Positions 17,758-42,455 of a stretch of DNA of 64,000 nt are shown here, piece by piece. Within the stretch, counting starts at the first letter, position 1. The number at the start of each line of letters is the position of its first letter. A program made the position numbers and the translations under genes. The stretch lies in the NCBI GenBank assembly GCA_028282805.1, contig JANQHD010000006.1:1-64000 (forward strand), read 5' to 3'. This DNA comes from Phycisphaeraceae bacterium (GTDB lineage Bacteria > Planctomycetota > Phycisphaerae > Phycisphaerales > Zrk34). The notes below the pieces were generated by a model. It had not been told where the DNA came from. It saw only the letters and a program-made list of their open reading frames with translations, and made no database searches.

Positions 17758-17787
17758 TTGAATGGATTCGACGGCGGCGAGTATACT
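17758..17787 (+). promoter_or_regulatory. Sigma70-type promoter of the putative export operon
   Basis: TTGAAT (17758-17763), 18-nt spacer, TATACT (17782-17787). The predicted start is near 17794, ~79 nt before the GAF-HlyD gene. No other promoter-like sequence is evident in the short gaps before the next two genes, supporting one transcript to 24000. Confidence 0.6.
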
Positions 17788-17872
17788 GCGTGACTGTCGG
17801 CCGAGCGCCACAAACCGAGTCGATGCCAACGCTTACGGCGGCTCGGTCACCCGTGAGTAACAGGAGTTTTCC

Positions 17873-19768: not shown

Positions 19769-19797
19769 CGACGAAACAAAACACGTAACGAGCCCAC

Positions 19798-21951
19798 ATG
19801 GAACGCCCCACGTTCAGCCCATCCTGGAGCCGGGTCAACCGGCTCACCCCTTCCCTGCGAGCGCAGGTGCAGGTGCGCCGGCGCGTGCTGCGCGGCCAGC
19901 CGTGGTACGTGCTGCACGACCCGCTCGGCAACCAGTTCTCGCGGCTGAACCCGGTGGCGTACCACTTCGTCGGCCTGCTCGACGGCCACCGCACGGTCGA
20001 AGAGGCCTGGCAGATGACGCTCCAGCGCCACGGCGACCACGCCCCCACCCAACACGAGGTCATCGCGCTGCTCGGGCAGCTCAACCAGGGCAACCTGTTG
20101 AAGATGGACCTGCCCGCCGACGCCGAGCCGCTGATGCAGCGCCACCGGCGCAAGCGCATCAAGCACTGGGCCGGGCAGGCGATGAGCGTGCTGTTCGTGC
20201 AGATCCCCGTGTTCAACCCGCACACACTGCTGGTGTGGCTGCTGCCGTTTTTCCGGCCGCTGCTGACGAAGTGGGGCTTGGCGCTGTGGGTGATCTGGCT
20301 GACGTTCTGCGGCGCGGTGTTCTTCCCCAACGCCGGCCCGTTCATCCGCGAGAGCACCGACCTGCTTTCGAGCCCGTCGAACTGGGGTTACCTGATCCTC
20401 ATGTTCATCGCGCTCAAGGCGATCCACGAGCTCGGCCACGGGCTGATGTGCCTGCGCTTCGGCGGGCCGGTCTACGAGGCGGGCATCATGCTGCTCGTAC
20501 TCGTGCCCAGCCCGTACATGGACACCTCCAGCTCGTGGGGCTTCGACAGCAAGTGGAAACGCCTGCTCGTCGGCGCCGCGGGCATGATGTTCGAGCTGAC
20601 CATCGCCGGGGCCGCGGCGTTGCTGTGGGTCCACGCCGACAACGTGCTCGTCAAACAGCTGGCGCACCACGTCGTGCTGCTGGCGTCGATCGCCACGATC
20701 CTGTTCAACGCCAACGCGCTGATGCGGTTCGACGGCTACTTCATGCTCAGCGACCTGCTCGAGATCCCCAACCTCTACGAGCGCGCCAGCCGGCAGCTGA
20801 AGTACCTCTTCCAGAAATACCTCTACCGTCTGCCCAGCGCCCAGCCCGTCACGGCCGACCGGTCGGAGCGGTGGGTGCTGCTGGTGTACGGCATCGCGGC
20901 GCTGATCTACCGCGTGCTGGTGATGTTCGCCATCGCCCTGTTCATCTCGGGCAAGCTGTTCACGCTCGGGCTGGCGCTGGCGATCTGGACCGTGGGCTCG
21001 TGGCTGATCTTCCCTGTGCTCAAGTTCATCCGCTGGCTGGCGGTCGGCGGCGACCTGCACAAGAAGCGCCAGCGCACCATCGCGATCACCGCGGCGGTGG
21101 CGGCGGCGCTGCTGCTCACGTTCGGGTGGGTGCCGTGGCCGCAGCACCGGCGCGCGATGGGCGTGGTCGAGGCCGCGGAACGGGCCGAGCTGATCGTGCA
21201 GACCGACGGGTTCGTCACCGCCGTGCACGCCGAGCCGGGCGACTTCGTGCAAGCCGGTCAGTTGATCATCGAGGCCGACAACCCCGTGTTGCGGGCGCAC
21301 CGGCGTGGGCTGCGGGCGGACCTCGACGCGACCCGCGTCGCGCTGCTCAACGCGCTGAAGGACAGCCCCGCCGACCAGCACGCGGCCCACGCGCGCATCG
21401 CCGCCTACACCGAAGAGCTGACGCAGATCGACCAGCGCCTCGAAGAGCTGAACATCCGCAGCCCGATGGCCGGCCAACTCGTCGCGCCGCCCATGCAGCC
21501 GCTCGTCGGCCGGTACCTCAAGCCCGGCCAACAGCTCGCGACCGTGATCGACCCGCAGACGCTGCGCGTGACCGCGCTGGTCGACCAGGCCGCCAACTCG
21601 CTGGTCGCGCTCGAAGGGGTCGAACGGGTCGAACTGCGGGCGCGAGGCCAAGCCAACCACACCGTCAAGAGCAAGCTGATCAAAGCCTTCGACTCCGGCC
21701 GGCGCACGCTGCCCCACCCCGCGCTGGGCACGGCCGGCGGCGGCGCCATCGCCATGGACGCCGACGACCCCGACCAACAGAGCACGCTGCGCCCGCAGTT
21801 CTACCTCTGGCTCGACCTGCCCGAATCGTCCAACGCCTTCGAGCTCGGCCAGCGCGTGCACGTGCGCTTCACGCTCAGCGAACCCAAGCCCCTCATCGCG
21901 CAGTTCTACCACCGCCTGCGACAGACCTTCAACCCCGGCGCCGCGCTGTAA
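19798..21951 (+). CDS. PqqD-like / M50 site-2 protease / HlyD fusion protein
   Basis: 717 residues. Residues 1-105 look like a PqqD-type peptide-binding domain (VLRGQPWYVLHDPLGNQFSRL, then DGHRTVEEAW). About 130-440 is a polytopic membrane domain with the M50 metalloprotease motif HELGH (210-214) and the second S2P signature NANALMRFDGYF (304-315). From ~455 a periplasmic lipoyl/HlyD adaptor follows (VQTDGFVTAVHAEPGDFVQA, helical hairpin, NIRSPMAGQLV). PqqD-like domains bind leader peptides of secreted or modified peptides, and M50/HlyD fusions occur in export clusters. The gene lies 29 nt after the GAF-HlyD gene. It may recognise, and possibly trim, the exported substrate. Confidence 0.88.
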   Translation: MERPTFSPSWSRVNRLTPSLRAQVQVRRRVLRGQPWYVLHDPLGNQFSRLNPVAYHFVGLLDGHRTVEEAWQMTLQRHGDHAPTQHEVIALLGQLNQGNLLKMDLPADAEPLMQRHRRKRIKHWAGQAMSVLFVQIPVFNPHTLLVWLLPFFRPLLTKWGLALWVIWLTFCGAVFFPNAGPFIRESTDLLSSPSNWGYLILMFIALKAIHELGHGLMCLRFGGPVYEAGIMLLVLVPSPYMDTSSSWGFDSKWKRLLVGAAGMMFELTIAGAAALLWVHADNVLVKQLAHHVVLLASIATILFNANALMRFDGYFMLSDLLEIPNLYERASRQLKYLFQKYLYRLPSAQPVTADRSERWVLLVYGIAALIYRVLVMFAIALFISGKLFTLGLALAIWTVGSWLIFPVLKFIRWLAVGGDLHKKRQRTIAITAAVAAALLLTFGWVPWPQHRRAMGVVEAAERAELIVQTDGFVTAVHAEPGDFVQAGQLIIEADNPVLRAHRRGLRADLDATRVALLNALKDSPADQHAAHARIAAYTEELTQIDQRLEELNIRSPMAGQLVAPPMQPLVGRYLKPGQQLATVIDPQTLRVTALVDQAANSLVALEGVERVELRARGQANHTVKSKLIKAFDSGRRTLPHPALGTAGGGAIAMDADDPDQQSTLRPQFYLWLDLPESSNAFELGQRVHVRFTLSEPKPLIAQFYHRLRQTFNPGAAL

Positions 21952-24075: not shown

Positions 24076-27000
24076 TCAGGTCGCCGCGGGGATCGTGAAC
24101 GCGAAGCGGGCGTTCACGCCGTTCAGCAGGGCCGTGCCCGCGGGGTCGCCGATGGTGGTCAGCGCCGAGCGGTGGCCCGAGCGATCGACGATCGGATCGG
24201 TCGCGTCGCCGACCAGCACGACGTCGAACATCACCACCGCATCGTCGAGCTCCTCGACCGGCAGCTGGTTGAACGGGGCGGGCCTGACGATGTCGATGAA
24301 GCCGAGCGTCCGGCCGTCCGTCGTCAACACCTCGCCGTACTCGAGGGTCACGTTGTCGACCAGCGTGTAGCTGTCGTCGAGGAAGTTGTTGTCGGTATCC
24401 ACGAACTGCATGACCGCGACGGTGCCGTTGTCGGTCGGGATGCCGTTCGCCGGGTCGATCGCCTGGGACAGCCGGACCGAGTCGCTGTTGACCGGCTCGG
24501 TCAGCACCAAGCGGAGGCGGTTGGGCGACTCGAAGGTGACGTTCAGGCCGCCGTTCTGGTCGAGGTCGAACTGGTTCTCGTTGCGCACCGGGTCGAAGAC
24601 CGGGACCTCGACGCCCTCTTGGATCTCGACGGTGGGGGCCAAGAACGGGTCGGGGTGCTCCTGCATCTCGAGGCGGAACGGGTTGGTGCGGATGTTCGTG
24701 CGGCCGACGCCCTGGGTGGTGACGACCACGGACTGCCGCGTCGGCGCCGAGGTGTCGACCTCGGTGATGTTGAGCCTGCCGATCTTGCTGGAGGCGACGC
24801 CGCCGGCTTCGACGGTGTTGATGATCCGGTCGCCGACCTGGCGCCGCAGGAAGACGTTGTGGTCCGCCGGCAGGCCCGGGCCCTCGCCCAGCGCCGGCAG
24901 CACACCCACGGTCAGCACCGAGTCGGTGAACAGGCCGAACGTCGCCGAGCCGAGGTAGCCGCCGTAGATCAGGTCGTCGGCGGTGTTGAACAGGCCGTCG
25001 GCGCCCGCGTCGATGCCGTAGGCGAACAGCGCGTCGTTCGACGTGCCGGATACCCGCAGGTTTCGGCCGCCGGAGGTCACGATGACCTGGCCGCCGAGCA
25101 CGTGGTTGAACGTGGCGTTGGTCAGGGCGTTGCCGACGATGAGGGCGCCGGCGTGGGTGCCCTTGATGCCGACGTTGCCCGCGGTGCCGGTGATCCGCAG
25201 CACGCTGCCCGCGTCGGTGTGGCTGGCGAGGTCGACGCGCTTGGCGTCGCCGTGCACCGTCGCCCGCGCCGTGGCGCCGAGCGTGCCGGTGAACCTCAGG
25301 TTGGACGCCCCGTTCATGTCGAGCGTGCCGCCGAACGCGCCGCCGAACGTGGCGCTGCCGGCCATGCCGAGGTGGAGCTCACCCGTGGCGAGCACGTCGC
25401 CGCCGACCGTTGTCGTGCGGTTCGAGCCGAGCCTCATGTGCCCGGCGAAGTCGCCGGTGCGCTGGCTGTAAGTCGACAGCTCGCCGCCGAAGTGCAGCAT
25501 CGCGCCATCGAGCACGTTGTTGGTCAGCGTGACGGACCGGCCGTTGCCCTGGATCTCGAGCACGCCGCCGAAGTCGCCGGTGCGCTGCGTCAGCGAACTC
25601 AGGTCGCCGGCGCTGGCCAGGACGCCGAAGAAGTCGTCGTTGAGCGTCACGCGTTTGAACGTGTTGCCCGTGGTGACGAACCGGCCCTGGTAGACGCCGT
25701 TGATGGTCAGCGAGTCGACGTGGGTGGCGATGATGCCGCCGGAGTTGGCCTCGTCGGTGTCGACGAGCTGTGCGAAGCGGTTCGCCGCCGGGTTGGCCGC
25801 GGTCTCGAAGGTGAAGAACTCGCCGGTCCCGCCGTCGTCGAACGTCAACCCGGTCACGTTGCTCGACAGCACCGACTGGGTCGTGAGCACCGTGATCACG
25901 CCCGTGCCCGGGTCGATCTGGACCACGTTGCGACCGGCGTTGTCGAAGGCGATCAGCTCCATCGCCACGCCGTCGTACTCGAGCGCATCGACGGTGATCG
26001 GGTCGCCGGCGGAATCGACCACCGGCACGCCCGCCGCGAAGGTGCCCGTGGCCACGTCGTAGTTCACGAGCTGCGAGCCGCCGCCGGCCGCGGGCATGAT
26101 GAACAGGATGTCGTTGGCGGCCGTGTCCGCCGTGAACGGCAGGTTGTCGCTCGCCGCCACGATTGCCGGCTGGCCGGTGTCGTCCGACAGCGTCAGCAGC
26201 CGGCTGAACGCGCCGGTGACCGTGTCGACCGTGCCGAGCACGGCCACGCGGCCGGTGGCGTCGGCGGTGTCGACCGGGTTCGTGAAGAACATGCCGTTGC
26301 CGGCCGTGTCGTAAGCGAACGTGCGGAAGTTCGTGCCCGTCGAGCCCACGGCGAACGCGTCGAGCGCGTTGTACGTCGCGTTGGCCAACGCTTGGTCGGT
26401 CACCTCTTGGAACAGCGAAGCGTCGGCCAAGTCGGCTTGGTCGAGGAACAGCATCTGGAACGTCGCGCCGTCGCTGTGCATCGCCAGCAGGTTGCCGTCG
26501 GCGTCGAAGCCGATGCCCTTGATGCTGGTCGAGCCCGCGCCGCCGCCGTTGATCTGCACGTTGCCGATCACGGTGACCGCGCCGGTCGCCGAGTTGATGG
26601 TCACCAGCTGGTCGGTGGTGCCGCCCACACGACGCAGGCCGTAGATCGTGCCCGTGCCCGGCTGCACGGCCAGGCCGGTGAACGCGTCGGTCACCACGCC
26701 GCCGTCGTCGAGCAGCACGCCCTGCAGCGCATCGCTGGAAAGGCGGTGGACCAGCAGGTCGCCGCCGCCGTCGGGCACCGTTTCGATCTCCGCGATCGCC
26801 CGATCGCCGGCGTTGCCGATCGCCGCGTTGCCGTCCACGTCCGAGATGATCGCGATCAGGCGATCGAACTGGTCGAACGCGATCGAGTCGACGTGCGAGC
26901 TGAAGCTCGCGACCGGGAACGTGTTACGCAAAGCGCCGATCACGGTAAACGTGCCGGTCGTGTTGTCGAACCTCACCAGCTGGTCGACGCCGGTGCTGGC

Positions 27001-30000
27001 ATCGATCGCGTACACCTCGCCGGCGGAGTTGACGGCCAAGCCGCTGAGCTGCACGCCCACGCCGATGTCGCCGCCGACCTTCCGCGTCGGCGACGGGTCA
27101 TACAACCGGGCCGCGGCGAACAGGTCGGCGCCGTTGAAGTCCATGCCGAGCAGGTCGGCCGCGTTGCCGGTGTAACCGTCAACCACGTTGACCGTGCCGA
27201 GCACGCCGCCGGGGCCGTCGAGCGTCGGGTCGATGTTGTCGAGCACGCCGCCGCCCGCGTGGGCCCAGAAGATGCCGGCCCCGTCAACGGTCAGCGTGTT
27301 GTAGACCGTGTTGGCGTAGGTGCCGAGGTTGCTGAGCAACGGCGTGGCCGAGCCGGTGTTGATCGTCGCCCGCTTGACCGGGCCGCCGATCACCAGGCGG
27401 CCGGGGCCCTGGTCGTCGAGGGTCAGCGACGAGACCTCGCCGCCGATCTGGCCGGACAGGTTGCCGCCGAGGTCGTCGAAGGTGAACGTCTTGACCGGGC
27501 CGTCGACCCAGATGTCGGGCGCATCGGTGCCATCGCCGACGATGTCGCCGTCGAACACGAACGAGCTGACGGTCGAGTCGTCGGTGCTGAGCAGGCGGCC
27601 GATGTTCACCGCGCCGCCGCCGGTCACGGTGACGCGCGAGGACTTGGTCGTGCCGTTGAACACGATCGCGTCGATCACGCCGTCGCCCGGCACCGCGTCG
27701 TAGATGTCGACCGACTCGCCCGGCTTGCCGGTGAGCGTGATCGTCGCGCCCTCGGCGGCGTAGACGAACGGCGTGCCGCTGACCGCCGAGCCCACCAGCG
27801 CCGGCAGCGGGCTGCCGAGGTCGGTGGTGATGTTGGCCAGGGTGTAGGTCACCGCGTCGTCGACGACGCCCGCGCCCGTGGCGCTGTTGGACTTGATCGT
27901 GGTGTCGCTGAACACGCCCGACGTGCCGTCGATCGCACCGCTGAGCCGGCTGATCGTGCTCATGCCGCCGGTCATGGATGTGGCCACCGCGGGCGCGACG
28001 AAGTCGCCGGCCGCCCCGGCGTCGGTGCCGGCGCTGATGAAGCTGCCGTTGGTCAGCCCGCCGCCGGTGATCGACACCGAGCGGGACGAGCCGAGGTAGA
28101 CCGCCGCGTCGGCCGCGCTGCGTGCGGCGTTGACCTCGGTGGCGTCGGCCAGCGGCGTCGCGTCGTTGACCACCGCGTTGATCGCGCTGGGGCCGTGGAC
28201 GTAGCCGAACATCGCCGAGCTGTTGTCCATCGTGCCGCTGGTAAACGTGTCGGTGTTGCCGCCCGAGGCGTAGACCGAGTTGGTCATCGACGCGGCGGTG
28301 AAGCGCGACACGTGCGCGATGCGCGTCGCTTCGTTGGCGTCGTTGCCGGTCGGCGTCGGGGCGAAGACGTCGTCGTCGCCGTCGGAGACGCCGAACTGGA
28401 TCAGCGAGTTGTCGATGCTGGTGGCGCTGAAGCTCTTCGCGCCCTGCGCGAAGGTGATGACCGAACCGACGATCGGGCCGGCGAAGCTCATCGTGCCGCC
28501 GTTGCCCTCGCCGACGAGGTTGACGGTGGTCGTGCCGCCGACGGTGGACCGCACGATGTCCCGGCCCACGTGCAGCGTGTCGCCGAGGGCCTGGCTCATC
28601 AGGTCGCCGCCGACGCTCAGCGTCAGCTTGGCGTCGATCAGGCTGTCGGTCGCGACCATCCAGTCGCCGCCGATCGTGGCGCGGGTGCCCCGGCTGTTGT
28701 AGCCGACGTTCAGGTCGCCGGCGAAATCGTTGGTCACCGACAGCGTGTTGAGGTAACCCAAATCGATGTCGGCGCTGGCCGCGACGCTGTCGCCCACGGT
28801 CAGCGAGCCGAGCCCGTGGGTAAAGTTGATCACCGCGCCGGAGTTGACCATGCCCGGGATGCGGATCGACTTGCCGGACACGCCGGAGATCGTGCCGTTC
28901 AGGTCGCTGCCGGTGATGGTGACGCTGACCACGTCGCCGGCCAGCGCTTGCAGCACGCCGTTGAGGTCACCGCCGCGGAGGTCGAACTTCGTGATGTCGC
29001 CGAGCAGCGACTGCAGCGTGAAGCCCGCCGCCAGGTCGCCGCCGGTCAGCGTCGCCGACTTCACGTTGCCGCCGACGGTGAACAGGATCGTGGTGCGCCC
29101 GTCGCCGAGGTCGCCGCCGGTGAAGGTTGCCCTGCCCAACTCGCCGCCGATGGTCACCGCGTCGTGGATCAGGTTGTCGCCGAGCGCGTGGAACTGCGTC
29201 GTGTCCGCCGCGGCGAAGCCGTTGGCCAGGTCGAGGTCGGCGGCGTTCAACCGCAACAGCTGCGAGGTGACGCCGTCGTTGGTCTGCGCGATCAGGTTGC
29301 CCTCGGGGTCGAAGCCGACGCCGATGATGTTCGTCACGCCCGCGCCGCCGCCGAGCACCTCGGCGCTGCCGATCGCGGTGACCGCGCCGGTCGTGGGGTT
29401 GATGGCGACGAGGTCGTCGGTCGCGCCGCCGGTCCGGCGGTTGGCGACGATCGTGCCGTTGAGGCCCGCGAGGTTGTTCGGGTCGTTAGGGTCGTTGAAC
29501 ACGGCCAAGCCGGTGAACGCGTCGACCACGCCGCCGCCGTCGAGCGCCACGCCCTTCATCGTCGTGTCGCCGACCGCGTGCACTGCGACCACGCCGCCCA
29601 CGGCCTCGATATCGATCTCGACCAGCGCCACCTCGGCCGCGTCGGCGCCACTGCCGTCGCGGTCGCTGACCAGCGCGATTAGCTGACCGAGCCCGTCGAA
29701 AGCCATGGCCAGGAGGTTCTGACTATAGGTATCCGACGCGCCGCCAACCTTGTTCTGCATCTCGCCCACGACGGTGAACCCACCCGTGGCTGGGTCGATG
29801 ACGATTAGCTTGTCGGTGCCGTCGATGGTGTCCACCGCGTACACCTCACCGGTGACCGGGTGGATCGCCATGCCGCGCAGGTCGGACGTGGCCGCCGTCA
29901 CCGCGCCGGTGATCGGGTCGATGAGGACCAGCTCATCGGTCACGCCGCCCGTGCGACGGATCGCGTAGAGCCGGCCGTTGAGCGGGTCGGACGGGCTGGC

Positions 30001-33000: not shown

Positions 33001-36000
33001 CCGGCCGGCGGTCGACTGCAACAAGCCGACGCCGCCGTTGGGCACGACCAGGATCGGCGTGCCGACAACCGCGTTCTGGAAGATCGTCGAGATCTCGCTG
33101 CCGATCAACGCGCGGAGGTCGCCGTTCTGCGTCTGGATGATCCCGCCGCTGGTGCCGGTGTTCATCAACAACAACCCGCCGGCGTTCAAGACGCCCAAGT
33201 CGCCGTCGAACACGGTGAACGCCTGCGCGCCGGCGCCGAGCAGGTTGTTGGTCGTGCGGATCGCACCCAGGCCCAGCTCTTCCACGCCCTGGATCGTCAG
33301 CGTGTATGCCTGGTCGCCACGCGGGATGTTGGCTTCGTCGGCGTCCTGGGTCGTGTTGAAGTTCGTGTTGTTGATCGCCGCCACCGCGAAGCGGTACTCG
33401 CCCGGCCGGTCGGCGGTGAAGCGGAGCGGCGTGGTGGAGTCGAAGAAGCCCGTGATGCCGTAGTTCGTCGCGATCAGCCGGCCGTCGGGATCGAACACGC
33501 CCACGCCGACATTCGGGTTGTTGATCAGCACGTCGACGGTCTGGCCCGCCATCAGCGACACCGCGTAGTAGTCGACCAGGTCGTTGGGGGTGTTGCTTGC
33601 CTCCACGTTGCCGGTCACGGAAGCGAACGCCACGCCGTCCGGGTCGAAGCTGCGCAGCGTGCCCAGCCGCTGGGCCGTGTCGAAGGTGTCGTTGAAGTAG
33701 GTCGACCCGCCGTCGTAGAGCTTCAAGGCGCTGAACGCCGCCGAGATCGAGCGCTGCGTCGGGTTCGCGCCGGTCACCGTCTGCCGGCCCTCGTGCTCCG
33801 TGGTCGGGGCGGTCGGGTCGGTGAAGAACAGCGCCGAGTCCAGGTTGTTGATCGTCGCCGTGCCCACGAACGAGTTCAGCGCCCACACCTGCCCCAGCTG
33901 GCCGCCGATCGTCATGTCGAAGTGGGTCATGTAGTTCGGCAAGGTCGGGTTGCCGTTGGCGGTGTTGACCGTGGTCTGGTTCGTGCCCAGCGACGAGGCG
34001 GAGATCAGGTTGTGCAGGTCGCCTTCGACGTTGAAGTTGCCCGGGATCGTCACGGCGCCGAACGTGGTGCCCGCGGTCGCGCCGGTGAGGATCGAGCCGG
34101 CGTAGAACGTGTTGGCCGAGCCGTAGAGGTCCACGTGGCCCGTGACCTTGCCGCCGATGAGGAAGTCGCCGAAGTGCTGCGACTGGTCGGTGTCGGTTGC
34201 GATGCCGCGCAGCGTCATGATCACCGCGGACTCGTCCGCGCCGGCCTCGGCCAGGACGCCCTGCTGGCTGAGCAACAGGTCGTCGCCCGTGGCGTTGTCG
34301 ACGACCATGAACTGGTCGCGCGTGAAGTTGTACGCCAGGCCGCCGACCGTCGGGCGCACCGAGCCCTTCTCGGTCTTCAGCACCTCGCCCACCGCCACGG
34401 CGCCGGCGCCGAGGGTCGTGGTGATGCCGGTCACCAGGGCATTGCTGGCGTTGAGGCCTTGTGCGTCGAACAGGTCGATGTCCATCACCCGGCCGTTGGT
34501 CTGGTCGTGCACCACCAACGTCTGGCCGAACCGGTCGAACGACATCGAGCGCAGCGTGAACGGCGTCTGGTCGAGGTTGCCGGGGAAGTCCTCGCGGTCG
34601 GTGAACAGGTCCGCGTCGGCCACGACCGAGCCGTCGGTCGCGTCGACCTCGTAGATGCGCCCGTCATTGCCGATCAGGTACATCGCCTGCTGCGCCGGCG
34701 GCCCGGCGATGTTCGGGCTGGCGAACGGCGCAAAGGCGATCGAGCTGACGCCCGCCGTCTGGAGCAGCGGGTCCAGCACGCCACCCGTGCCCAGCGGGTC
34801 CACCGGCGTGAACTCGACCGTGTTGGAGCTGACGAAGACCGAGTCGCCCCCAAGGTTCAGGTCGAAGCTGATGAATCGACCGTTGGCGTCGGTCTCCAAG
34901 CCGAACAAGGTGGTCGACGCCGAACCCGCCGTGTTGTAGGCGACGGAGTTGGTCGGGTCGGCCGGGTCGATGATGATCAGGTTGTCCGTGCCGGCCGCGC
35001 GGTTGTAGGCGAACAACCGGCCGAAGCGGTCGAAGGTCAAGCCGTCTACGGTCGCCGCCGAGCCGCCCACCTCGATATCGCCCAGCGTCGCGACCTCGCC
35101 GGTCGCGGTGTCGATCGTGATCAGCTGGTGCGTGCCGGCGTTGTCGCGCACGGCGAACAGCGTGCCGTCGGCCGAGAACGCCATCGCGACGATCTCGTCG
35201 GTGATCGCCACGCCGCCCTCGGTCAACTCGATCTCGCCGCCCTGCCCGTTGTCGCTGACGGCCTCGAGGTCGTTGAAGTTCAGGTCGAAGTCGAGGTCGG
35301 CACCAGTCGTGTTCAGCGTGTACAGCACACGATTGCCCGTGATCGCCGACGGGGCGACCAAGAGCACGAGCGGGTCGTCAGCCGGGTCGAGACGGTTCGG
35401 GTCGAAAACGATCTCGTCCACGGTCGCCATCTTGACAAAGCTGCCCGGGGCGTCGCTCTGGTAGATCGTGCCTCGGAATCCCGCGCCGCCCGAGTTGCTG
35501 GAGGAGTAGAGGTCCAGGTCGCCGAGGCCGGTGTTCTCCACGAACAGGATCGAAGATTTGTCCGTCGACAGCGCCATCGTCTCCGGCGAAAAAGAACCGG
35601 GCAAGCTGCCGCCCAGACCGGACGCCGTCAGGTCGATCGGCACGAGGTCGGGCTCGGTGCCGATCGTGCCGAGCACCAACTGGTCCGGCGTCGTGGGGTC
35701 GGCGTCGTGGTCGATGCCGTAGACGGCGTAAAGCTGTTCGTTGCCGTCGAAATCGAGGTCACCGTAGGCGAAACCAAGCGCGTCGCGCAACGGGAGGTTG
35801 AAACCGCTGGCGCCCCCGGTGTCATCGAAGAACACCTCCGCGTGCATGAACACCTGACCGGTCGCCGGGTCGATGAACGCGATCTGATCGGCCGGGGCCG
35901 TGTCCAGCGGGTTCGTGTTCAGGATGGTCGTGACGATGCCCCCGCGATCGTTGACCTGGTCGACATCGAGCACCAGGAACGAGTCCGGCCGGGTCAGGTC

Positions 36001-38910
36001 GCGCCGGATCGCCAGCCCCGCCCCCAGATCGACGTTGCCCTGGATCAGTCGATCGCCGACCGACGTGGCCAGGCCCTTGACCGGGTTGACAAAGACCAAC
36101 TCGTCGGTGGTCGCATCGGTCGCGATGAACGCGCCCAGCGTACCGTCGAACGGGTTGGTTAACGCGGGGTTGAACGCCAAGCCCTGCAGGTCCAGGCCGC
36201 GCACCGGTCCCTGGTGGTCGTTGGTGTCGACCGACAGGCCGATCGAGGTCGCCTCCGGAATCGTTTTTTCAAGGTTGACGTGGTAGTACTGGCTGCTGTT
36301 GCCGTTCGAACTGATCGCCAGAATCTGGGTGTCGGCGACAGACGCGTTGTCCTCGAGCGGGGCGATCCCGGTCATCGTCAAGATGGAATTGCCGTTCGGA
36401 TCGACGACGAAATCGGCGCCGGTCAGCGCCAGCGCATCGCCGTTGGCCCGGAAATCGGTGTCGGCGGGGTTGACGTCGATGATGGCCTGGCCCGCCACGC
36501 TGCCGTTATCGTCCAACGAATCCAACAGCACCAGCAGCCGCGTGGTGGCCGAGGTGTTCTGGTCGAACACGAGCGACTGCACGCGCACCCTGTCGACCGC
36601 GTAGTCGATGTGGTGCGGGTCGGCGTCGGACGCGTTGTTGACCTGGCCGAACGTGCCGGCGACCAGCGTCAGGCTGGCGGCGACGTCGGGCGCGGTCACG
36701 TCCATGGCGAACAGCCGGTCGACCAACACGCCGGACTCGTCCATCTCGGCGACGAAGTAGAGCATCGCCGGGTTGTCCGGGTCGAACGCCGCGGCGCGGA
36801 CGTCGTTGACCTGCACGACGAAGTCGCGCCCGGCGGGCAGCGCCGCGTCGACCGCCGCGATCAGCGCGTCGTTGAGGTCCGCGATCACGTTCGCGTCGCC
36901 GCGGTTGGGGCCGATCGTCGTCAAGCCAAGGAACTGGACCAGCCGCTGGGTCTCGTCGGCGGCGTTGACCACGTCGACCACGTTGAAGCTGTACGTCTCG
37001 CCGTTGGTCCGCGAGGCCAACGCGTTGAGGTTGATGCTGTCCGAGCCGGCCTCGTCGAACGCGAACGTGCCCTGCGGCACGACCGTGTCGGTGATGCTGG
37101 TCGGCCCAAGGTCCTGCGTGCCGTCGAGGTAATCGGTCAGGGACGCCGAAACCACCACGCCCGAACGGATCTTCGTGGGGTTGGAGTTCGGCTGAATCGG
37201 GTCAGAGGGGTCGTGCTCGCCCACGCCGTCGTCGGGCGTCTGCTCGATGCCCAGGGGCAGCACGCCGATCTGCGTCAGCAGGTCCAGGTCCGTGATCGGC
37301 AGGAGCGGTTCGGTGGTCGGCGAGGTGGGCGTGCGGAGCACGAAGTCCTTGTGGCCGATGTACACGCCGCCGATGCCCGCGTCGAAGTTGATGATGCTGT
37401 TGGGCAGCGGGGTGTTGAGGGTGGTGACCTGCAAGTCGTACCCGGGGGTCGTGGTCACCAAGGCCGTGTTCGCGTTCTGCGGGCTCAGCGCCGAGACGCC
37501 GGTGAAAGGCGTCAGCCAGCTATTGGTCGCATTGAGCGGCAGGACGAACTGCCGCGTCGAGATCGTGATCGACGAGCCGGGGCTGGCGTGCGAGACGTAG
37601 ATGCCGAACAGCTGGTTGTTGCCGTGGCCCAGCGCGTTGACGTAGACCAGTTCGTCGGTCGACGCGTCCGTGGCGATGTAGGCGCCGTTCTGACCGGTGA
37701 ACGGGTCGACCAAGTTCGGGTGGAACGACAGGCTCTGCAGGTCGTTGCCACGGAAGGCGGGGTTGTTGTCCGACAGGTCGCGGCCGGGCCCGAGGTTGGT
37801 CAACACGACGCCGGCGCTCGCGTCGATCCGGAAGATGTCGCCCGCGCCGCTCTGGACGGCCAGGAAATCGTTCTGGGTTTGTAGCGGGTCGTCGGCACCG
37901 AAGATCGCCAAGCCGGTCAGGTTGAGGATGTCGCCCAGGTTGGTGTTGGTCAAGGTGGCGATGGTCGCCGTGGTCAGGGAGTCCAGCGGGTTGATCTCTT
38001 CGATCGCTTGCGTATCCGGAGCCAAGCCGTTGAACCGGGTGACCAACGCCAGCAGGCGCCGACCGGTGGGGTCCTGCAACGGGTCGGTCGCGTCGACCTG
38101 GTCGAAGTGCAGCGCATCGACGCGGAGGGTGCTGTTGGCGCCCTGGCCGAACGTGCCGATCGGGCCGGTGACGGTGCCGGTCGTCACGTCGACCGAGTAG
38201 AGGGTGTCGATGTCCTGGTTGTTGACGTTGATGCCGGCGACGAAGTAGAGGTCGTTGGTGCTGGTCGGGTCGATCGCCGCGCCGCGGATCGCGTTGACGG
38301 TGGACAGGCCGGTGCCGTCGACCGGCAGCTGGCCTTGCAACTCGGCGATGACGGTCGTTGCGCCGGTGGCGGTGTTGACCGAGAGCAACTCGACGAGGCG
38401 CGTCTGCGCGTTGTTGACGGTGACGGTGCGGACGTTGATGGAGAACGTCGCGCCGGCCGGGTCGGTGGCCAGCGACTGGAGCGTCACGTTGGCCGAGGGC
38501 AGGGCGTTTGTGCCGACGTTCACCCCGCCGGTGATCGGGTTGAAGACGGTGGTGGGGCCGATCAGCCGTGTGCCGTCGGCGCCGAAGCGGAAGCGGCTGG
38601 AGTCAAACGGGAGATGCACGGCGGTGTTGATCCCGCGGGTCGGGCTGATGACGAACTCGCCGCCGAGGTCGCCGATGGCGATCAGCGCGTGCTCGTTGGC
38701 GTCGCCCGGCGTGATGTCGCGCGTGCCGATCAGCTCGATGATGGCGTCGCCGGTGACCGTGATGTCGACGACCTGGTTGTCGACATCGATGTAGCGGAAG
38801 GTGTCGCCGCCGACCAGCGTGGTCAGCATCTTCCGTTGTTCCAGCGTTTCGAGCTGGTGCACGGGGGCGGTTTGGGGTGATGGGTCCGGTTTCTTGCCTC
38901 GTTTGGTCAT
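24076..38910 (-). CDS. Giant repeat protein with LEPR-XLL-like N-terminal signal
   Basis: About 4,944 residues. ATG 38910 has an AGAGAGG site; an upstream in-frame Met lacks one. The basic N-terminus contains TLEQRKMLT (residues 22-30), close to the LEPR-XLL sorting motif of very large secreted proteins, and has no classical signal peptide. The body is Gly/Asp/Thr/Val-rich and I see no cysteine in it. Parts: propeller-like repeats (for example QLITIDTATGEVATLG), a PPC-like domain near 1740-1880 (DYYAVSLMAGQTVDVLI), beta-solenoid-like runs with GGDL/GDL turns (about 2200-2800 and 3240-3500), and three similar ~155-residue modules. The C-terminal ~250 residues form a distinct domain ending FAFTIPAAT; there is no PEP-CTERM or LPxTG tail. 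Probably a surface or matrix protein. Confidence 0.9.
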   Translation of the reverse strand: MTKRGKKPDPSPQTAPVHQLETLEQRKMLTTLVGGDTFRYIDVDNQVVDITVTGDAIIELIGTRDITPGDANEHALIAIGDLGGEFVISPTRGINTAVHLPFDSSRFRFGADGTRLIGPTTVFNPITGGVNVGTNALPSANVTLQSLATDPAGATFSINVRTVTVNNAQTRLVELLSVNTATGATTVIAELQGQLPVDGTGLSTVNAIRGAAIDPTSTNDLYFVAGINVNNQDIDTLYSVDVTTGTVTGPIGTFGQGANSTLRVDALHFDQVDATDPLQDPTGRRLLALVTRFNGLAPDTQAIEEINPLDSLTTATIATLTNTNLGDILNLTGLAIFGADDPLQTQNDFLAVQSGAGDIFRIDASAGVVLTNLGPGRDLSDNNPAFRGNDLQSLSFHPNLVDPFTGQNGAYIATDASTDELVYVNALGHGNNQLFGIYVSHASPGSSITISTRQFVLPLNATNSWLTPFTGVSALSPQNANTALVTTTPGYDLQVTTLNTPLPNSIINFDAGIGGVYIGHKDFVLRTPTSPTTEPLLPITDLDLLTQIGVLPLGIEQTPDDGVGEHDPSDPIQPNSNPTKIRSGVVVSASLTDYLDGTQDLGPTSITDTVVPQGTFAFDEAGSDSINLNALASRTNGETYSFNVVDVVNAADETQRLVQFLGLTTIGPNRGDANVIADLNDALIAAVDAALPAGRDFVVQVNDVRAAAFDPDNPAMLYFVAEMDESGVLVDRLFAMDVTAPDVAASLTLVAGTFGQVNNASDADPHHIDYAVDRVRVQSLVFDQNTSATTRLLVLLDSLDDNGSVAGQAIIDVNPADTDFRANGDALALTGADFVVDPNGNSILTMTGIAPLEDNASVADTQILAISSNGNSSQYYHVNLEKTIPEATSIGLSVDTNDHQGPVRGLDLQGLAFNPALTNPFDGTLGAFIATDATTDELVFVNPVKGLATSVGDRLIQGNVDLGAGLAIRRDLTRPDSFLVLDVDQVNDRGGIVTTILNTNPLDTAPADQIAFIDPATGQVFMHAEVFFDDTGGASGFNLPLRDALGFAYGDLDFDGNEQLYAVYGIDHDADPTTPDQLVLGTIGTEPDLVPIDLTASGLGGSLPGSFSPETMALSTDKSSILFVENTGLGDLDLYSSSNSGGAGFRGTIYQSDAPGSFVKMATVDEIVFDPNRLDPADDPLVLLVAPSAITGNRVLYTLNTTGADLDFDLNFNDLEAVSDNGQGGEIELTEGGVAITDEIVAMAFSADGTLFAVRDNAGTHQLITIDTATGEVATLGDIEVGGSAATVDGLTFDRFGRLFAYNRAAGTDNLIIIDPADPTNSVAYNTAGSASTTLFGLETDANGRFISFDLNLGGDSVFVSSNTVEFTPVDPLGTGGVLDPLLQTAGVSSIAFAPFASPNIAGPPAQQAMYLIGNDGRIYEVDATDGSVVADADLFTDREDFPGNLDQTPFTLRSMSFDRFGQTLVVHDQTNGRVMDIDLFDAQGLNASNALVTGITTTLGAGAVAVGEVLKTEKGSVRPTVGGLAYNFTRDQFMVVDNATGDDLLLSQQGVLAEAGADESAVIMTLRGIATDTDQSQHFGDFLIGGKVTGHVDLYGSANTFYAGSILTGATAGTTFGAVTIPGNFNVEGDLHNLISASSLGTNQTTVNTANGNPTLPNYMTHFDMTIGGQLGQVWALNSFVGTATINNLDSALFFTDPTAPTTEHEGRQTVTGANPTQRSISAAFSALKLYDGGSTYFNDTFDTAQRLGTLRSFDPDGVAFASVTGNVEASNTPNDLVDYYAVSLMAGQTVDVLINNPNVGVGVFDPDGRLIATNYGITGFFDSTTPLRFTADRPGEYRFAVAAINNTNFNTTQDADEANIPRGDQAYTLTIQGVEELGLGAIRTTNNLLGAGAQAFTVFDGDLGVLNAGGLLLMNTGTSGGIIQTQNGDLRALIGSEISTIFQNAVVGTPILVVPNGGVGLLQSTAGRVTFNSVDPLTGAAAIDDYIQVIDAAATLSGSMYTNKGIGVIRAGTITGADNGQSPTFIRLNTDGVGADGIIDLIDVNGNLGGAAEGGPAITTGPGGNVRYMIVDGAIFQDNQFASGSFAPQTLDPGQAFEHVDDSGGRVVLRPGTAGIGLAGALTINQYGIRGSGGSVLVSVTSSDFGFTASSLNTPNNGTVEIGTINVDGLGRAVTDQNGQLILGQGTDISVVLNGPVVVDVMTINGNGLTQINNATGGEMVSINATSIGNLFGKGDIGLPMTHSGAVVNRRDNVLTAYPFDNQKFGVNVTGSVIQARSWKSLGNLSIGGTLGSLLANADEVNRTDSPQGLLAPVFVQGDIQRVNIGEVLAPSGSGSFSHGGLYANGAIQLVLNQGSGSDILGDIVSTQQIDRIQLTHGSIINSTVNVLQLLSMSAKTDRTEATAGFIDTIVLNGSGGIIGSEFEASTFTGNVTVNGFGIFHSVFATSGNGQLNHVTAGGFGLVGVSLLADSTIGDVVATGNGKLLAVADFSGSVSPSTRFAHDPRFDQPLTVLNDLALALASNRRYEMVAGQINGTTAQATVEMDNLRAHKIVDSTFDFANEISTITTGKSVDDDPATIDNVQVTTGKLGRFNPGADVRTLTMTIAGPLNSLTLRGNLLGDSLVQAVGPNGNINTINILGDLVGSLFADGIIRNVTVGGDMTGDIEARGVGLTRGLVVSRITIKGSFFGSADLTGDVGQIIVTGQFGRVGDELVVDGNLNTLRVGNSSGGVLTVLAADVYVSGDLRTLDVIGQVHGLLFVGGNLSNMKVTNVAFTIPTTHDVFAVDPSSTGVLRTFSYDAAGMGTLFASPFVGSQPLFPADPRPLSTVGALTPDPADLSVAAVDPTTRDTYRIDTIGGVDTLVMIDAITGALSVVGELRNTFAFANDRYSQDVFALTIDELGRLIALVGDRDGAGADPSEAALVEIDRVAVGGVVEVHKIGDPSAKGVLLDGGGVLDPFVGFGVYNNLASPSDPLNGRLYAIRRTGGVTDELVLIDPITGAVTAATSDLRGMAIHPVTGEVYAVDTIDGTDKLIVIDPATGGFTVVGEMQNKVGGASDTYSQNLLAMAFDGLGQLIALVSDRDGSGADAAEVALVEIDIEAVGGVVAVHAVGDTTMKGVALDGGGVVDAFTGLAVFNDPNDPNNLAGLNGTIVANRRTGGATDDLVAINPTTGAVTAIGSAEVLGGGAGVTNIIGVGFDPEGNLIAQTNDGVTSQLLRLNAADLDLANGFAAADTTQFHALGDNLIHDAVTIGGELGRATFTGGDLGDGRTTILFTVGGNVKSATLTGGDLAAGFTLQSLLGDITKFDLRGGDLNGVLQALAGDVVSVTITGSDLNGTISGVSGKSIRIPGMVNSGAVINFTHGLGSLTVGDSVAASADIDLGYLNTLSVTNDFAGDLNVGYNSRGTRATIGGDWMVATDSLIDAKLTLSVGGDLMSQALGDTLHVGRDIVRSTVGGTTTVNLVGEGNGGTMSFAGPIVGSVITFAQGAKSFSATSIDNSLIQFGVSDGDDDVFAPTPTGNDANEATRIAHVSRFTAASMTNSVYASGGNTDTFTSGTMDNSSAMFGYVHGPSAINAVVNDATPLADATEVNAARSAADAAVYLGSSRSVSITGGGLTNGSFISAGTDAGAAGDFVAPAVATSMTGGMSTISRLSGAIDGTSGVFSDTTIKSNSATGAGVVDDAVTYTLANITTDLGSPLPALVGSAVSGTPFVYAAEGATITLTGKPGESVDIYDAVPGDGVIDAIVFNGTTKSSRVTVTGGGAVNIGRLLSTDDSTVSSFVFDGDIVGDGTDAPDIWVDGPVKTFTFDDLGGNLSGQIGGEVSSLTLDDQGPGRLVIGGPVKRATINTGSATPLLSNLGTYANTVYNTLTVDGAGIFWAHAGGGVLDNIDPTLDGPGGVLGTVNVVDGYTGNAADLLGMDFNGADLFAAARLYDPSPTRKVGGDIGVGVQLSGLAVNSAGEVYAIDASTGVDQLVRFDNTTGTFTVIGALRNTFPVASFSSHVDSIAFDQFDRLIAIISDVDGNAAIGNAGDRAIAEIETVPDGGGDLLVHRLSSDALQGVLLDDGGVVTDAFTGLAVQPGTGTIYGLRRVGGTTDQLVTINSATGAVTVIGNVQINGGGAGSTSIKGIGFDADGNLLAMHSDGATFQMLFLDQADLADASLFQEVTDQALANATYNALDAFAVGSTGTNFRTFAYDTAGNGMFFTNPVDTADATGRVAVLGTVDTVTGAFSRLLTLSDDTGQPAIVAASDNLPFTADTAANDILFIMPAAGGGSQLVNYDVATGTFAAGVPVVDSAGDPITVDALEYDGVAMELIAFDNAGRNVVQIDPGTGVITVLTTQSVLSSNVTGLTFDDGGTGEFFTFETAANPAANRFAQLVDTDEANSGGIIATHVDSLTINGVYQGRFVTTGNTFKRVTLNDDFFGVLASAGDLSSLTQRTGDFGGVLEIQGNGRSVTLTNNVLDGAMLHFGGELSTYSQRTGDFAGHMRLGSNRTTTVGGDVLATGELHLGMAGSATFGGAFGGTLDMNGASNLRFTGTLGATARATVHGDAKRVDLASHTDAGSVLRITGTAGNVGIKGTHAGALIVGNALTNATFNHVLGGQVIVTSGGRNLRVSGTSNDALFAYGIDAGADGLFNTADDLIYGGYLGSATFGLFTDSVLTVGVLPALGEGPGLPADHNVFLRRQVGDRIINTVEAGGVASSKIGRLNITEVDTSAPTRQSVVVTTQGVGRTNIRTNPFRLEMQEHPDPFLAPTVEIQEGVEVPVFDPVRNENQFDLDQNGGLNVTFESPNRLRLVLTEPVNSDSVRLSQAIDPANGIPTDNGTVAVMQFVDTDNNFLDDSYTLVDNVTLEYGEVLTTDGRTLGFIDIVRPAPFNQLPVEELDDAVVMFDVVLVGDATDPIVDRSGHRSALTTIGDPAGTALLNGVNARFAFTIPAAT
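26575..27024 (-). repeat. Propeller-like module C of the giant protein
   Basis: Encodes GEVYAIDASTGVDQLVRFD ... RLIAIISDVDGNA ... GLRRVGGTTDQLVTINSATG, clearly similar in order and spacing to modules A and B about 2.3-3.8 kb upstream in the gene. More diverged than A and B are from each other. Confidence 0.65.
29365..29846 (-). repeat. Propeller-like module B of the giant protein
   Basis: Encodes GEVYAVDTIDGTDKLIVID ... QLIALVSDRDGSGADAAE ... VANRRTGGATDDLVAINPTT. It aligns with module A in sequence and spacing, with an offset of about 520 nt. This indicates a recent tandem duplication inside the gene. Confidence 0.7.
29900..30370 (-). repeat. Propeller-like module A of the giant protein
   Basis: Encodes DTYRIDTIGGVDTLVMID ... 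RLIALVGDRDGAGADPSE ... YAIRRTGGVTDELVLIDPIT. First of the tandem pair with module B. Confidence 0.7.
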
Positions 38911-38922
38911 CACAACACCTCT

Positions 38923-38939
38923 CTGACGAGTTGCGTCAG
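38923..38939 (-). promoter_or_regulatory. Hairpin just upstream of the giant gene's ribosome-binding site
   Basis: CTGACG (38923-38928) and CGTCAG (38934-38939) form a 6-bp stem with a 5-nt loop, ending a few nt before the AGAGAGG site. It could modulate translation start. No convincing promoter was found in 38940-39061. Confidence 0.3.
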
Positions 38940-39061
38940 TACCACTTCGCCCGTCTTGGGCCTGAACCGCATCACGATCCGTCAAACGGTCTGAGCCTTC
39001 ACGGATTGATCCATCCCTCTCCACGCCACGATGGCGGCCGCGCGTGTCCTTACGCGTCGGT

Positions 39062-39421
39062 TTATTCGGCGCTGCTTGCGGCGCCGGAAAGCAGGCGTTT
39101 GCGCTGATCGATCTCGAGCGGGCCGTACATCTTCTCGTAGTTGGCCACGACCTGGTTCAACGCCAGCGCCAGGCGCTTGGCGCCCCACGGGCTGAGCACG
39201 ACGCGCTGATCGATTTTCAATAAGGCTTTGTTTTCGCCCGCCGCCTGGATGCCGCTGGCGAAGTCGAGGTAGATCTCTTCGGCCGAGCCCCACACGCGGC
39301 TGGTCGAGCTGTAGAGCTTGGCGGTCGCGCTGTCGTCGAGCTGCAGTTCGATCGGGCGGTCGCCTGGCGCGCCTTCGGGTTGGATCACGTCGTTCGGCGC
39401 GGCTTGTCCTGAATCAGTCAT
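39062..39421 (-). CDS. DUF3467-family protein
   Basis: 119 residues. The segment SAEEIYLDFASGI ... LLKIDQRVVLSPWGAKRLAL ... NYEKMYGPLEID is the DUF3467 signature, a small cytosolic family with no established function that is common in Planctomycetota. ATG 39421 has a GGTGGAAG site; the upstream Met at 39496 has none. It has its own promoter (39529-39557) and lies 151 nt upstream of the giant gene on the same strand, so read-through into that gene is possible. Confidence 0.82.
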   Translation of the reverse strand: MTDSGQAAPNDVIQPEGAPGDRPIELQLDDSATAKLYSSTSRVWGSAEEIYLDFASGIQAAGENKALLKIDQRVVLSPWGAKRLALALNQVVANYEKMYGPLEIDQRKRLLSGAASSAE

Positions 39422-39756: not shown

Positions 39757-40620
39757 TTACTCCGCCGCCCCGCCCCCCGAAACCAGCTGCACCGGGAACC
39801 CGGCAGGCATCGCCTTGTCCGGGTTGTCGATCTCAAACACGCACCGAAACGTCCGGCTCGCCGGGTCGATCACCTTTGAGGCGTAGGTCAGCCGACCTTC
39901 GATCTGGCGATCTATCGGCTTTCCGGCACTGAGCTTATAGGTTTTGCCGACCACCATTTTTTCGTATAGATCCACCGACAGGTGGATCTCGGCTTTCAGC
40001 GTGCGCAGGTCGATCAGCACAACGATCGGGTCGCTCGGCCCCACCGTCGCCCCCGGGTCGGCCGCCACCCGCGTGACCAGCCCCTCCCACGGCGCGGTCA
40101 TGGTCAGCCGTTCTAACCGCGCCTGCTCGAGCTTCAACTCCGCCTCGGCCACGGCGATCGCTTCGGCCGCCGCCTCTACCGCCACCTGCGCCAAGTCCCG
40201 GCGGAGCTTGGCGCGGCGCACCTCCCACTGCCGCGCCGCATCCTGCGCAAACGCCTTGGCGACCTGTTCGTGCATGATCTCCGCCTCGGCCAACTCCAAC
40301 CGGGCGCGCTCGAGGGCGCTCCGACTCGTCGCACGCAGCTTCACCGCCTCCACCACCGCCGCCTGCAACTGCCGGTCCATCTCGACGAGCTTCTGGCCCT
40401 CCGCGACCCGTTGGCCCTCTTCGACGTGCACCTTCAGCAGCTTGCCTTCCATCGGCGTGTGCAGCGCGACCTGCCGCTTGGGCAGCGCCAGGCCGGGCAA
40501 CCGGTCGATCGTCGCGCGGTCCGCGAGTGTCGCCACCGGCTGAGCAACGGCGTGCGTCACACACACCAAGCCCAGCGCGATCGCACACACCCACGCCTTG
40601 ATCCCGTTGACAAGTTTCAT
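39757..40620 (-). CDS. Periplasmic adaptor (membrane-fusion) protein
   Basis: 287 residues. Signal peptide ending near VTHAVAQ. Lipoyl half 1 (ALHTPMEGKLLKVHVEEGQR), alpha-helical hairpin (about 85-160), lipoyl half 2 (LTMTAPWEGLVTRVAADPGA) and beta-barrel (VLIDLRTLKAEIHL ...), ending shortly after without the membrane-proximal domain. It overlaps the TolC-like gene by 4 nt (ATGA), so the pair is coupled. No RND, ABC or MFS pump gene adjoins it. Confidence 0.88.
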   Translation of the reverse strand: MKLVNGIKAWVCAIALGLVCVTHAVAQPVATLADRATIDRLPGLALPKRQVALHTPMEGKLLKVHVEEGQRVAEGQKLVEMDRQLQAAVVEAVKLRATSRSALERARLELAEAEIMHEQVAKAFAQDAARQWEVRRAKLRRDLAQVAVEAAAEAIAVAEAELKLEQARLERLTMTAPWEGLVTRVAADPGATVGPSDPIVVLIDLRTLKAEIHLSVDLYEKMVVGKTYKLSAGKPIDRQIEGRLTYASKVIDPASRTFRCVFEIDNPDKAMPAGFPVQLVSGGGAAE

Positions 40621-42455
40621 GGCTCAACCCTTTCGCCGGCGTCGGCAGGCCCGTCGATCGCCGCGGCGCGCTCTTGTTGCATCAAACCAGATCGCCCCGG
40701 CCTAGCCGCGTCTTCGAACGCGATGCCGCGCTCGTCCAACAGCGTGCCGATCGCCTGGTAGAACCGCACCCGCGCAATGTTGTAATTCACCAGCGCCCGC
40801 ATCTCCTGCAGCTCCGCGTCGGCCAACCGTTGCTGGGTGCGCAGCTTCAAATCCAGCAGGAACTCGGGCGTGAGTGACTCGCCCATCTGTTCGCGTTCGC
40901 GCAGGGCACGCAGGTTCTCCGCCGCCGCCCGGCGTGCCGCACGCGCGATGCCCACCACCTCGTAAGCGCTGGTCATCGCCCGCATCGACTGCTTGACCGA
41001 AAGGATCACGCCCCGCGCCGTGTCGCGGTAGTTCACCCGCTGGGCCAGGGCCGTGAGGCGCGTCCGCTGGTAGACCGCGTCCGCGGCCCGGTTGTTGAGC
41101 GGCCGCTCAAACCGCAGGCCCACGAGGTAATCGATCACGTCGTCGTCGATATCGCCGTAGCTCTCGCCGACCGTCTGGTCCAGGCCGAACGTCCGCACCT
41201 GGCCGGTCAGGTCCAGCCGGGGCAACCGCTGGTTGTCGGCGACCTTGCGTTGAACACCCACGTCTTCCAGGTCGATCAACACCTGCCCCAGCTCCGGCCG
41301 ACGCTGGATCGACACCGCCACGGCGTCGTACAGCTTCCAACCGTTGGGCAGTTCTTCGGGGAAATCGCTGGGCTCGACCAGCGTCTCGGTCATCAGCGGC
41401 AGGTCGGGCGAGTCCAGCAATCGCTTGAGCTGGTCCGACGCGTCGCGCAAGCCCACGCGCGCCTGCACCAGCGCGATCTCGTTGGCCCGCACCTCGCGCT
41501 CGGCCTGGGCCAGCTGCACGGGGTTGACGTCCACGTCCCGCCGCTTGTCGAGCTCGTCGCGCGTCTTGCGCGTTTCGTCGAGCAAGTCCTGCTGGATCGC
41601 CAACCGGTGGCGGGCGAACACCAGTTCCCAGTAAGCCGCCTCGGTCTCGGCGACCAGTTGCAGCAACCGCTGCTCGAGGCCGAGCACGTCGCGCCGCTTG
41701 GCGTTGTTGGCCAACACGATCTGCGCGGTGTTGACCTCTTCGCCGAAGTCGCGCAGCAACGGCTGGGTCAGCTCCAGGCCCACGCTCGCCGTCGACGCCG
41801 GGTCGGGCAAAAACGCCGTGCCCGGCGACTTGTCATCGATCCAATCGACCCGGCTGGAAATCGCCAGCTCCCCGCCGGTGTACAGCCGGCTGCGCACGCC
41901 CGCTTGCACCGATGCCGTGTCCCGCACGATCGCGTCGGCTTCGACCGGCACGCCACCCAGCGCGCTGGCGGCTTGCGGGCGGTCGGTCTGGCCGACGTTG
42001 GCTTCCGAGAACGCGACCGGGTCGAACTGGCCCCGGGCCTCGGTGATCTGCGTGTCGCGTATCTGCGGCGCGATCCGCGCCACCTCGGTGCTGAGGTTGT
42101 GGCGCAGGGCCGTCATGATCGCCTGCTGCAAAGTCATCCGCACGTGCTGCGGCTCGGTGCCGTCGAGGCCCTCGCCGGGGTTGACGGCGCTGTCGCGGTG
42201 GCGGCCGGGCCCCGACACGCGGTCGAGCTCACCGATGCGCTGCGGGTCGATGCCGAGCTGTCGCAGGTCGATGTCGTTGCCCACGGCGCCCGGCTCCGCC
42301 TCGTGGTCGATCGCCGCCCGCGCCCGCGCGATCACGTCGCGGCGCAGCTGCTCGCCGTCGTCGGCCACGAACGGCGACTGGCAGCCGCCGGCCCACAACA
42401 AACCCAGCAACAGCACGCGGGCGACCGGCACGGTTTGTGAGGCGTCGTGTTTCAC
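40617..42455 (-). CDS. TolC-family outer-membrane efflux protein
   Basis: 612 residues from the GTG chosen; the frame is open to 42536. The GTG start gives a signal sequence VARVLLLGLLWAGGC with a lipobox-like Cys, so the protein may be a lipoprotein like many OprM-type channels. Two repeats of TolC helical architecture are seen: LRHNLSTEVARIAPQIRDTQ ... LLQLVAETEAAYWELVFARH, and the second around VAVSIQRRPELGQVLIDLED. Known: forms the trimeric outer-membrane exit duct for tripartite exporters. The ribosome-binding site is weak for every candidate start. Confidence 0.85.
   Translation of the reverse strand: MKHDASQTVPVARVLLLGLLWAGGCQSPFVADDGEQLRRDVIARARAAIDHEAEPGAVGNDIDLRQLGIDPQRIGELDRVSGPGRHRDSAVNPGEGLDGTEPQHVRMTLQQAIMTALRHNLSTEVARIAPQIRDTQITEARGQFDPVAFSEANVGQTDRPQAASALGGVPVEADAIVRDTASVQAGVRSRLYTGGELAISSRVDWIDDKSPGTAFLPDPASTASVGLELTQPLLRDFGEEVNTAQIVLANNAKRRDVLGLEQRLLQLVAETEAAYWELVFARHRLAIQQDLLDETRKTRDELDKRRDVDVNPVQLAQAEREVRANEIALVQARVGLRDASDQLKRLLDSPDLPLMTETLVEPSDFPEELPNGWKLYDAVAVSIQRRPELGQVLIDLEDVGVQRKVADNQRLPRLDLTGQVRTFGLDQTVGESYGDIDDDVIDYLVGLRFERPLNNRAADAVYQRTRLTALAQRVNYRDTARGVILSVKQSMRAMTSAYEVVGIARAARRAAAENLRALREREQMGESLTPEFLLDLKLRTQQRLADAELQEMRALVNYNIARVRFYQAIGTLLDERGIAFEDAARPGRSGLMQQERAAAIDGPADAGERVEP

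Follow-up and report, generated by a model that had tools for sequence, protein, structure and literature searches.

What is the purpose of a locus that combines a SecA-like ATPase, a PqqD-M50-HlyD fusion and a GAF-HlyD adaptor with the gene of a giant protein? Such a locus lies in a window of 64,000 nucleotides (the whole stretch of DNA analysed) from a Phycisphaeraceae bacterium; its contig, C56, belongs to a genome of 3.9 Mb in which the canonical SecA is encoded elsewhere. The initial annotation read the locus as a possible dedicated export system for the giant and was aware of no published system so composed. The latter statement has to be withdrawn, as the machine locus has been published without its cargo. 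Kamneva, Poudel and Ward (2015) described a conserved locus of secondary SecA_DEAD, HlyD, Peptidase_M50 and GAF proteins in which they found no ABC pump, and suggested that it works in the manner of type I secretion, SecA being the ATPase and the M50 protein a possible pore (PMC4452313). They named no substrate, termed the role completely unknown and mentioned neither PqqD nor giant proteins (PMC4452313). From comparison of the sequences, we consider it likely that the locus encodes a dedicated TolC-type exporter, lacking an ABC transporter, for LEPR-XLL proteins, here chiefly the Cys-free giant of 4,944 residues.

Gene content and organization of the locus

A Pfam/NCBIfam scan recovered every gene named in the initial annotation where it had been placed (Table 1). 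The genes for GAF-TM-HlyD, PqqD-M50-HlyD and the SecA-like protein follow one another on the plus strand with intergenic gaps of 29 and 24 bp. Convergent to them on the minus strand are the TolC, periplasmic adaptor, DUF3467 and giant genes; the adaptor and TolC genes overlap by 4 bp, 75 bp separate the giant from the SecA-like gene, and the whole set lies between rho and the Pit-type transporter. The scan of window genes, which extended from rho to gcvP, gave no ABC domain, and no pump gene was detected next to the adaptor/TolC pair, as the annotation had observed. The window carries the features of the published locus, namely a second SecA_DEAD protein without SecA_SW, adjacent M50/HlyD and GAF/HlyD genes, and an additional HlyD/biotin-lipoyl protein with an OEP gene nearby (39757-42536). 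Outside the locus, a gene for a fused ThiD2-thiamine phosphate synthase (43760-44782, minus strand) adjoins the Pit-type transporter, and two GNAT acetyltransferase genes overlap by 4 bp (13037-14745, plus strand).

Table 1. Positions in the window of the locus features and of the flanking genes.
Feature	Position	Strand	Basis
rho (flank)	16481-17686		
GAF-TM-HlyD inner-membrane adaptor, 631 aa	17873..19768	+	Pfam/NCBIfam: GAF, one TM (about 359-382), HlyD
PqqD-M50-HlyD fusion, 717 aa	19798..21951	+	Pfam/NCBIfam: PqqD aa 37-101, Peptidase_M50 198-320, HlyD
PqqD/RRE-like domain, candidate leader-binding site	19906..20100	+	Pfam PF05402; strand/helix order of model
HELGH zinc-protease motif	20425..20439	+	H210, E211, H214 invariant in alignment
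SecA-like motor, 674 aa	21976..24000	+	Pfam/NCBIfam: SecA_DEAD, PP_bind, P-loop_SecA; without SecA_SW
Giant LEPR-XLL-type protein, 4,944 aa from ATG, proposed cargo	24076..38910	-	
LEPR-XLL motif LETLEQRKMLTT, giant aa 20-31	38818..38853	-	Homologues with LE[TSA]LEPR[VIL]LLTT
DUF3467 protein, directly upstream of giant	39062..39421	-	Pfam/NCBIfam
Periplasmic adaptor, RND_mfp family, signal peptide	39757..40620	-	TIGR01730 above cut-off
TolC-family outer-membrane factor (OEP/TolC-like), probable lipoprotein (LWAGGC)	40617..42536	-	Pfam/NCBIfam
PHO4/Pit transporter (flank)	42569-43684		

The giant protein and its N-terminal motif

The giant contains no Cys and 0.9% Lys, and a sequence scan found no GGxGxD (RTX) repeats in it. 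Its N-terminus has neither a hydrophobic signal peptide nor a hydrophobic core; the N-termini of other LEPR-XLL proteins appear basic, not hydrophobic. The NCBIfam LEPR-XLL model NF012209 (cut-off 17 bits) gave the giant no score and its homologues 15-18 bits. The giant's motif, LETLEQRKMLTT, is off consensus and aligns with LEPR[VIL]LLTT of its relatives; homologues in six genomes (G003, G005, G008, G021, G033 and G042) share its N-terminal region with the motif LE[TSA]LEPR[VIL]LLTT. A chance LExRxxL match was rejected on the evidence of these homologues. The description of the giant as LEPR-XLL-like in the initial annotation is thus upheld by homology, that is, by the consensus-motif homologues and an LLTT-type profile built from them with the window sequence included, and not by NF012209.

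Of 61 genomes searched, ten encode proteins significantly related to the giant's first 700 residues, and all ten carry M50-HlyD. In the phylum sample the LLTT profile matched ten genomes, all with M50-HlyD, with weak matches only in five. In G033 and G042 the SecA-like, DUF3467 and giant genes stand in a row on one strand (from G033:C1:438345 and G042:C89:116931 onward), far from GAF/M50; the giant frames have 19,806 and 17,845 residues, and the portions read from both ends contain no Cys. The G021 giant and GAF-M50-DUF3467 are arranged divergently. On a contig other than that of the operon, the source genome encodes a second LEPR giant (G000:C54:30630-43886, plus strand), a frame of 4,419 residues carrying YEPLERRVMLSA close to the N-terminus, so that the system may serve more than one client.

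The adaptor and protease proteins

The GAF-HlyD protein is predicted to place its GAF domain in the cytosol and its HlyD part in the periplasm. In the structure model of M50-HlyD the N-terminal region has the strand-helix order expected for a PqqD/RRE domain, and structure-model comparison matched the C-terminal HlyD part to the MexA/MacA/AcrA adaptors (E about 1e-12). All 119 M50-HlyD relatives examined retain HExxH, three of them as non-HExGH variants, and 112 of the 119 retain FDGY.

The SecA-like motor

Over the motor, the SecA-like protein and the canonical SecA of the genome share 35% identity. Among 97 relatives the motor motifs are largely intact (GEGKT in 92, the DE-D box in 82, TNMAGRGTD in 90). 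All 65 complete frames measured end 71-93 residues past GRQGD; canonical SecA has about 350 more. We take this shortening to be the loss of the helical wing, the two-helix finger and the tail. In SecA, the two-helix finger and wing act on SecYEG.

A SecA2-type variant, in which the SecA-like protein uses ordinary SecYEG to bring the giant to the periplasm and HlyD/TolC serve the outer membrane only, is unlikely in our estimation, though there are points in its favour: the homology to SecA is clear and includes the DEAD, clamp and P-loop domains, and the NCBIfam SecA2 models give 379-485 bits. These scores are all far under the cut-offs (484.6/1085, 470.9/930, 434.2/725 and 379/1100 bits), the wing/finger region is lost family-wide, the giant has the N-terminus described above, and the operon has a gene for a multi-spanning PqqD-M50-HlyD protein but none for SecY. 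SecA2-only systems are known in Gram-positives (PMC4452313).

In three close relatives, G033, G042 and G051, the operon has no SecA-like gene. Dispensability was rejected as an explanation, since the protein is encoded elsewhere in those genomes; in two of these three (G033 and G042) its gene adjoins the giant. Three operon-less genomes carry canonical SecA alone.

Conservation of the operon and linkage to LEPR-XLL genes

A full M50-HlyD gene is present in the source genome and in 38 of the 60 nearest genomes, and in none of family f3. At least 583 M50-HlyD relatives occur in the genome collection; 80 loci from many phyla were retrieved, and the operon is kept in Planctomycetota, Verrucomicrobiota, Nitrospirota, Proteobacteria, Desulfobacterota and others. 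In the 61 well-covered loci (7 kb present on each side) M50-HlyD is accompanied by GAF-HlyD in 59 and by the SecA-like gene in 51, bearing out the initial annotation's reading of the three genes as one operon.

A further adaptor stands beside the operon in 50 of the 61 loci, a DUF3467 gene near it in 20 and a TolC relative in 8; counted over 119 loci, a TolC-family gene adjoins the operon in 19. Many Verrucomicrobiota/Desulfobacterota loci have a TolC/adaptor pair directly upstream of GAF-HlyD. In the frames of ten planctomycete relatives, no TolC partner was seen by eye upstream of the operon-adjacent adaptor. The inclusion of DUF3467 in the system, as first annotated, is consistent with its recurrence at the locus, and the membership of the window's adaptor/TolC pair is less certain. 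A SecB-like fold considered for DUF3467 was dropped (AlphaFold model pLDDT 82; best PDB match E 0.43, not significant).

With a strict in-house model, for which zero reversed or internal slices scored as a control for chance matches, a LEPR-XLL protein was found near M50-HlyD in 7 of the 61 loci. In five Verrucomicrobiota/Kiritimatiellae/Proteobacteria loci (L160, L168, L183, L184 and L197) the LEPR-XLL gene comes right after the SecA-like gene, or after SecA-like plus adaptor. LEPR-XLL frames of 14,390 and 6,258 residues end just ahead of DUF3467-GAF-M50-SecA in a Sulfuritalea MAG and a Desulfomicrobium MAG, respectively, and Methylobacterium/Methylorubrum relatives carry the operon about 10 kb from a frame of 13,600-15,200 residues. 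Among 44 operon-bearing non-planctomycete genomes, 35 encode LEPR-XLL proteins, in frames of up to 17,246 aa; in about 13-15 of the 44 such a gene shares the operon's contig and is no more than about 12 kb away (contigs paired by length or coordinates), compared with about 0.6 expected.

A divergent M50-HlyD locus (L089, L090, L091 and L280, in G005, G007, G003 and G021, respectively) has no SecA-like neighbour and has the window-type DUF3467. In G021 an LLTT-type giant lies beside it, which hints that the system has a second subtype.

Co-occurrence of LEPR-XLL proteins with the operon

The initial annotation had asked for a search of planctomycete genomes for co-occurrence, and an association was found with LEPR-XLL proteins, most of which are giants. 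NF012209 exceeded its cut-off in 22 of 42 Planctomycetota genomes with M50-HlyD vs 1 of 106 without it (148 genomes; Fisher p=1e-13), and in a separate sample of 232 Gammaproteobacteria, the class of G213, in 18 of 29 vs 4 of 203 (p=7e-16); these counts are uncorrected for kinship within each sample, and MAG gaps remain in them. Two of the four gammaproteobacterial exceptions are matches in frames of 99 and 168 residues, which are probably due to chance. Within the taxonomic order to which the window belongs, a LEPR DNA motif occurred 121 times in 39 operon-bearing genomes vs 25 for the reversed-pattern control, and 9 times vs 12 in 22 operon-less genomes.

These data bear on the reading that the operon handles other substrates, such as peptides or small molecules in the style of daptide/epipeptide-type M50 proteins, with LEPR-XLL proteins tied to it by co-regulation or lifestyle alone. 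The M50 part is indeed nearest to the NCBIfam daptide HExxH model, scoring 158 bits where the cut-off is 300, and PqqD-like domains bind RiPP leaders. The association in two separate samples and the physical linkage, including that in G033/G042, nevertheless make this reading improbable; lifestyle alone fails as an explanation because lifestyle does not predict neighbouring genes.

The initial annotation held that regular occurrence of the operon without LEPR-XLL proteins would speak against its proposal. In Gammaproteobacteria this is not the pattern, as 16 of 18 genomes with the full-type operon (M50-HlyD above 400 bits) have a LEPR-XLL protein; in Planctomycetota it is only partly excluded. 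Several observations count against the exporter reading. Twenty of the 42 M50-HlyD-bearing planctomycetes, mostly those with divergent M50-HlyD, have no NF012209 match over the cut-off. G143, G306 and G429 encode LEPR-XLL proteins that seem genuine (23-29 bits), and in these genomes the M50-HlyD profile finds generic HlyD only; the LEPR-XLL proteins include frames of 7,373 residues (G429:C57:21725) and 726 residues (G306:C348:1100), and the G429 and G306 proteins possibly use another export route. A published Vibrio LEPR-XLL giant carries RTX and might leave the cell by a standard type I system (PMC10868602).

The operon's absence from G143, G306 and G429 would also fit a conventional split type I system, in which an ABC or RND pump encoded at a distance would move the giant through MFP and TolC, themselves classic type I/efflux parts, and the SecA/M50 operon would have a regulatory or quality-control role. 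We give this little credence, given a giant without RTX repeats and the lack of an ABC pump both in the inspected window genes and in the published loci (PMC4452313). Co-occurrence and linkage together strongly support the dedicated apparatus first annotated, with export itself the inferred part.

Proposed mechanism and significance

In the exporter that we favour, transport, recognition and cleavage of the leader, and the location of the cargo at the surface are all inferred. The basic N-terminus with its LEPR-XLL motif would act as an address tag, to which the PqqD-like domain would bind in the cytosol with the small cytosolic protein DUF3467 as partner. The SecA-like ATPase, which keeps the nucleotide-binding domains and the preprotein clamp and has lost finger and wing, would then feed the unfolded chain to the multi-spanning M50 protein, where it would cross the inner membrane, although SecYEG could instead be the pore. 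From there a tunnel of HlyD domains (M50-HlyD, GAF-HlyD and the free adaptor) docked on TolC would lead onward. The conserved zinc site of M50 would probably trim the tag, and the GAF domain may serve as a gate.

The co-occurrence of the machine with LEPR-tagged giants across several phyla suggests, at the level of genomes, an answer to the purpose of the orphan machine. Two orphans would explain each other: a SecA/M50/HlyD locus on record since 2015 without a substrate, and a LEPR-XLL tag, carried by some very large bacterial proteins, without a known exporter. If true, this would be a route by which chains of 5,000-20,000 residues leave diderm cells with neither Sec signal nor ABC pump, and would add a SecA-driven branch to TolC-type export. 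The prediction is testable in the genetically tractable Methylobacterium/Methylorubrum relatives. That these parts form a widespread, distinct secretion class (N-terminal LEPR-XLL tag, PqqD-like reader, finger-less SecA motor, M50 protease/channel, HlyD-TolC duct, giants of up to ~20,000 residues, many phyla) is a wider claim, for and against which we see the balance as even.

Comparison with known systems

Type I secretion (HlyB-HlyD-TolC, including that of giant RTX adhesins) likewise uses HlyD adaptors and a TolC duct for very large, Cys-poor cargo without a signal peptide. In contrast, the present operon has no ABC transporter, a SecA-type motor and an M50 protease/PqqD fusion; the cargo has no RTX, and an N-terminal tag is proposed instead of the C-terminal type I signal. 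Like the SecA2 accessory Sec pathway, the locus has a modified second SecA with a role, putative here, in exporting certain surface proteins; it differs in reaching no SecA2 cut-off, in lacking the wing/finger region and SecY2, and in its HlyD/TolC partners. The RiPP PqqD/M50 maturases (daptide HExxH, YydH/LiaK) have a related M50 protease, and a PqqD-like leader-binding domain is found here, whereas the M50 part here is fused to HlyD, falls under the family cut-offs and is linked to giants and not small peptides.

The open-access passages naming LEPR-XLL give no exporter for these proteins, and a search of open-access journals found no publication linking the SecA/M50/HlyD locus to LEPR-XLL. 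The locus of Kamneva et al. agrees with ours in its genes, operon arrangement, SecA_DEAD without SecA_SW and overlapping taxa, with an OEP gene nearby in some; the difference is the link to LEPR-XLL giants, which comes from the present analysis. The machine was thus already known, and its assignment to a LEPR-XLL cargo looks new as far as searchable, with good support from genomics.
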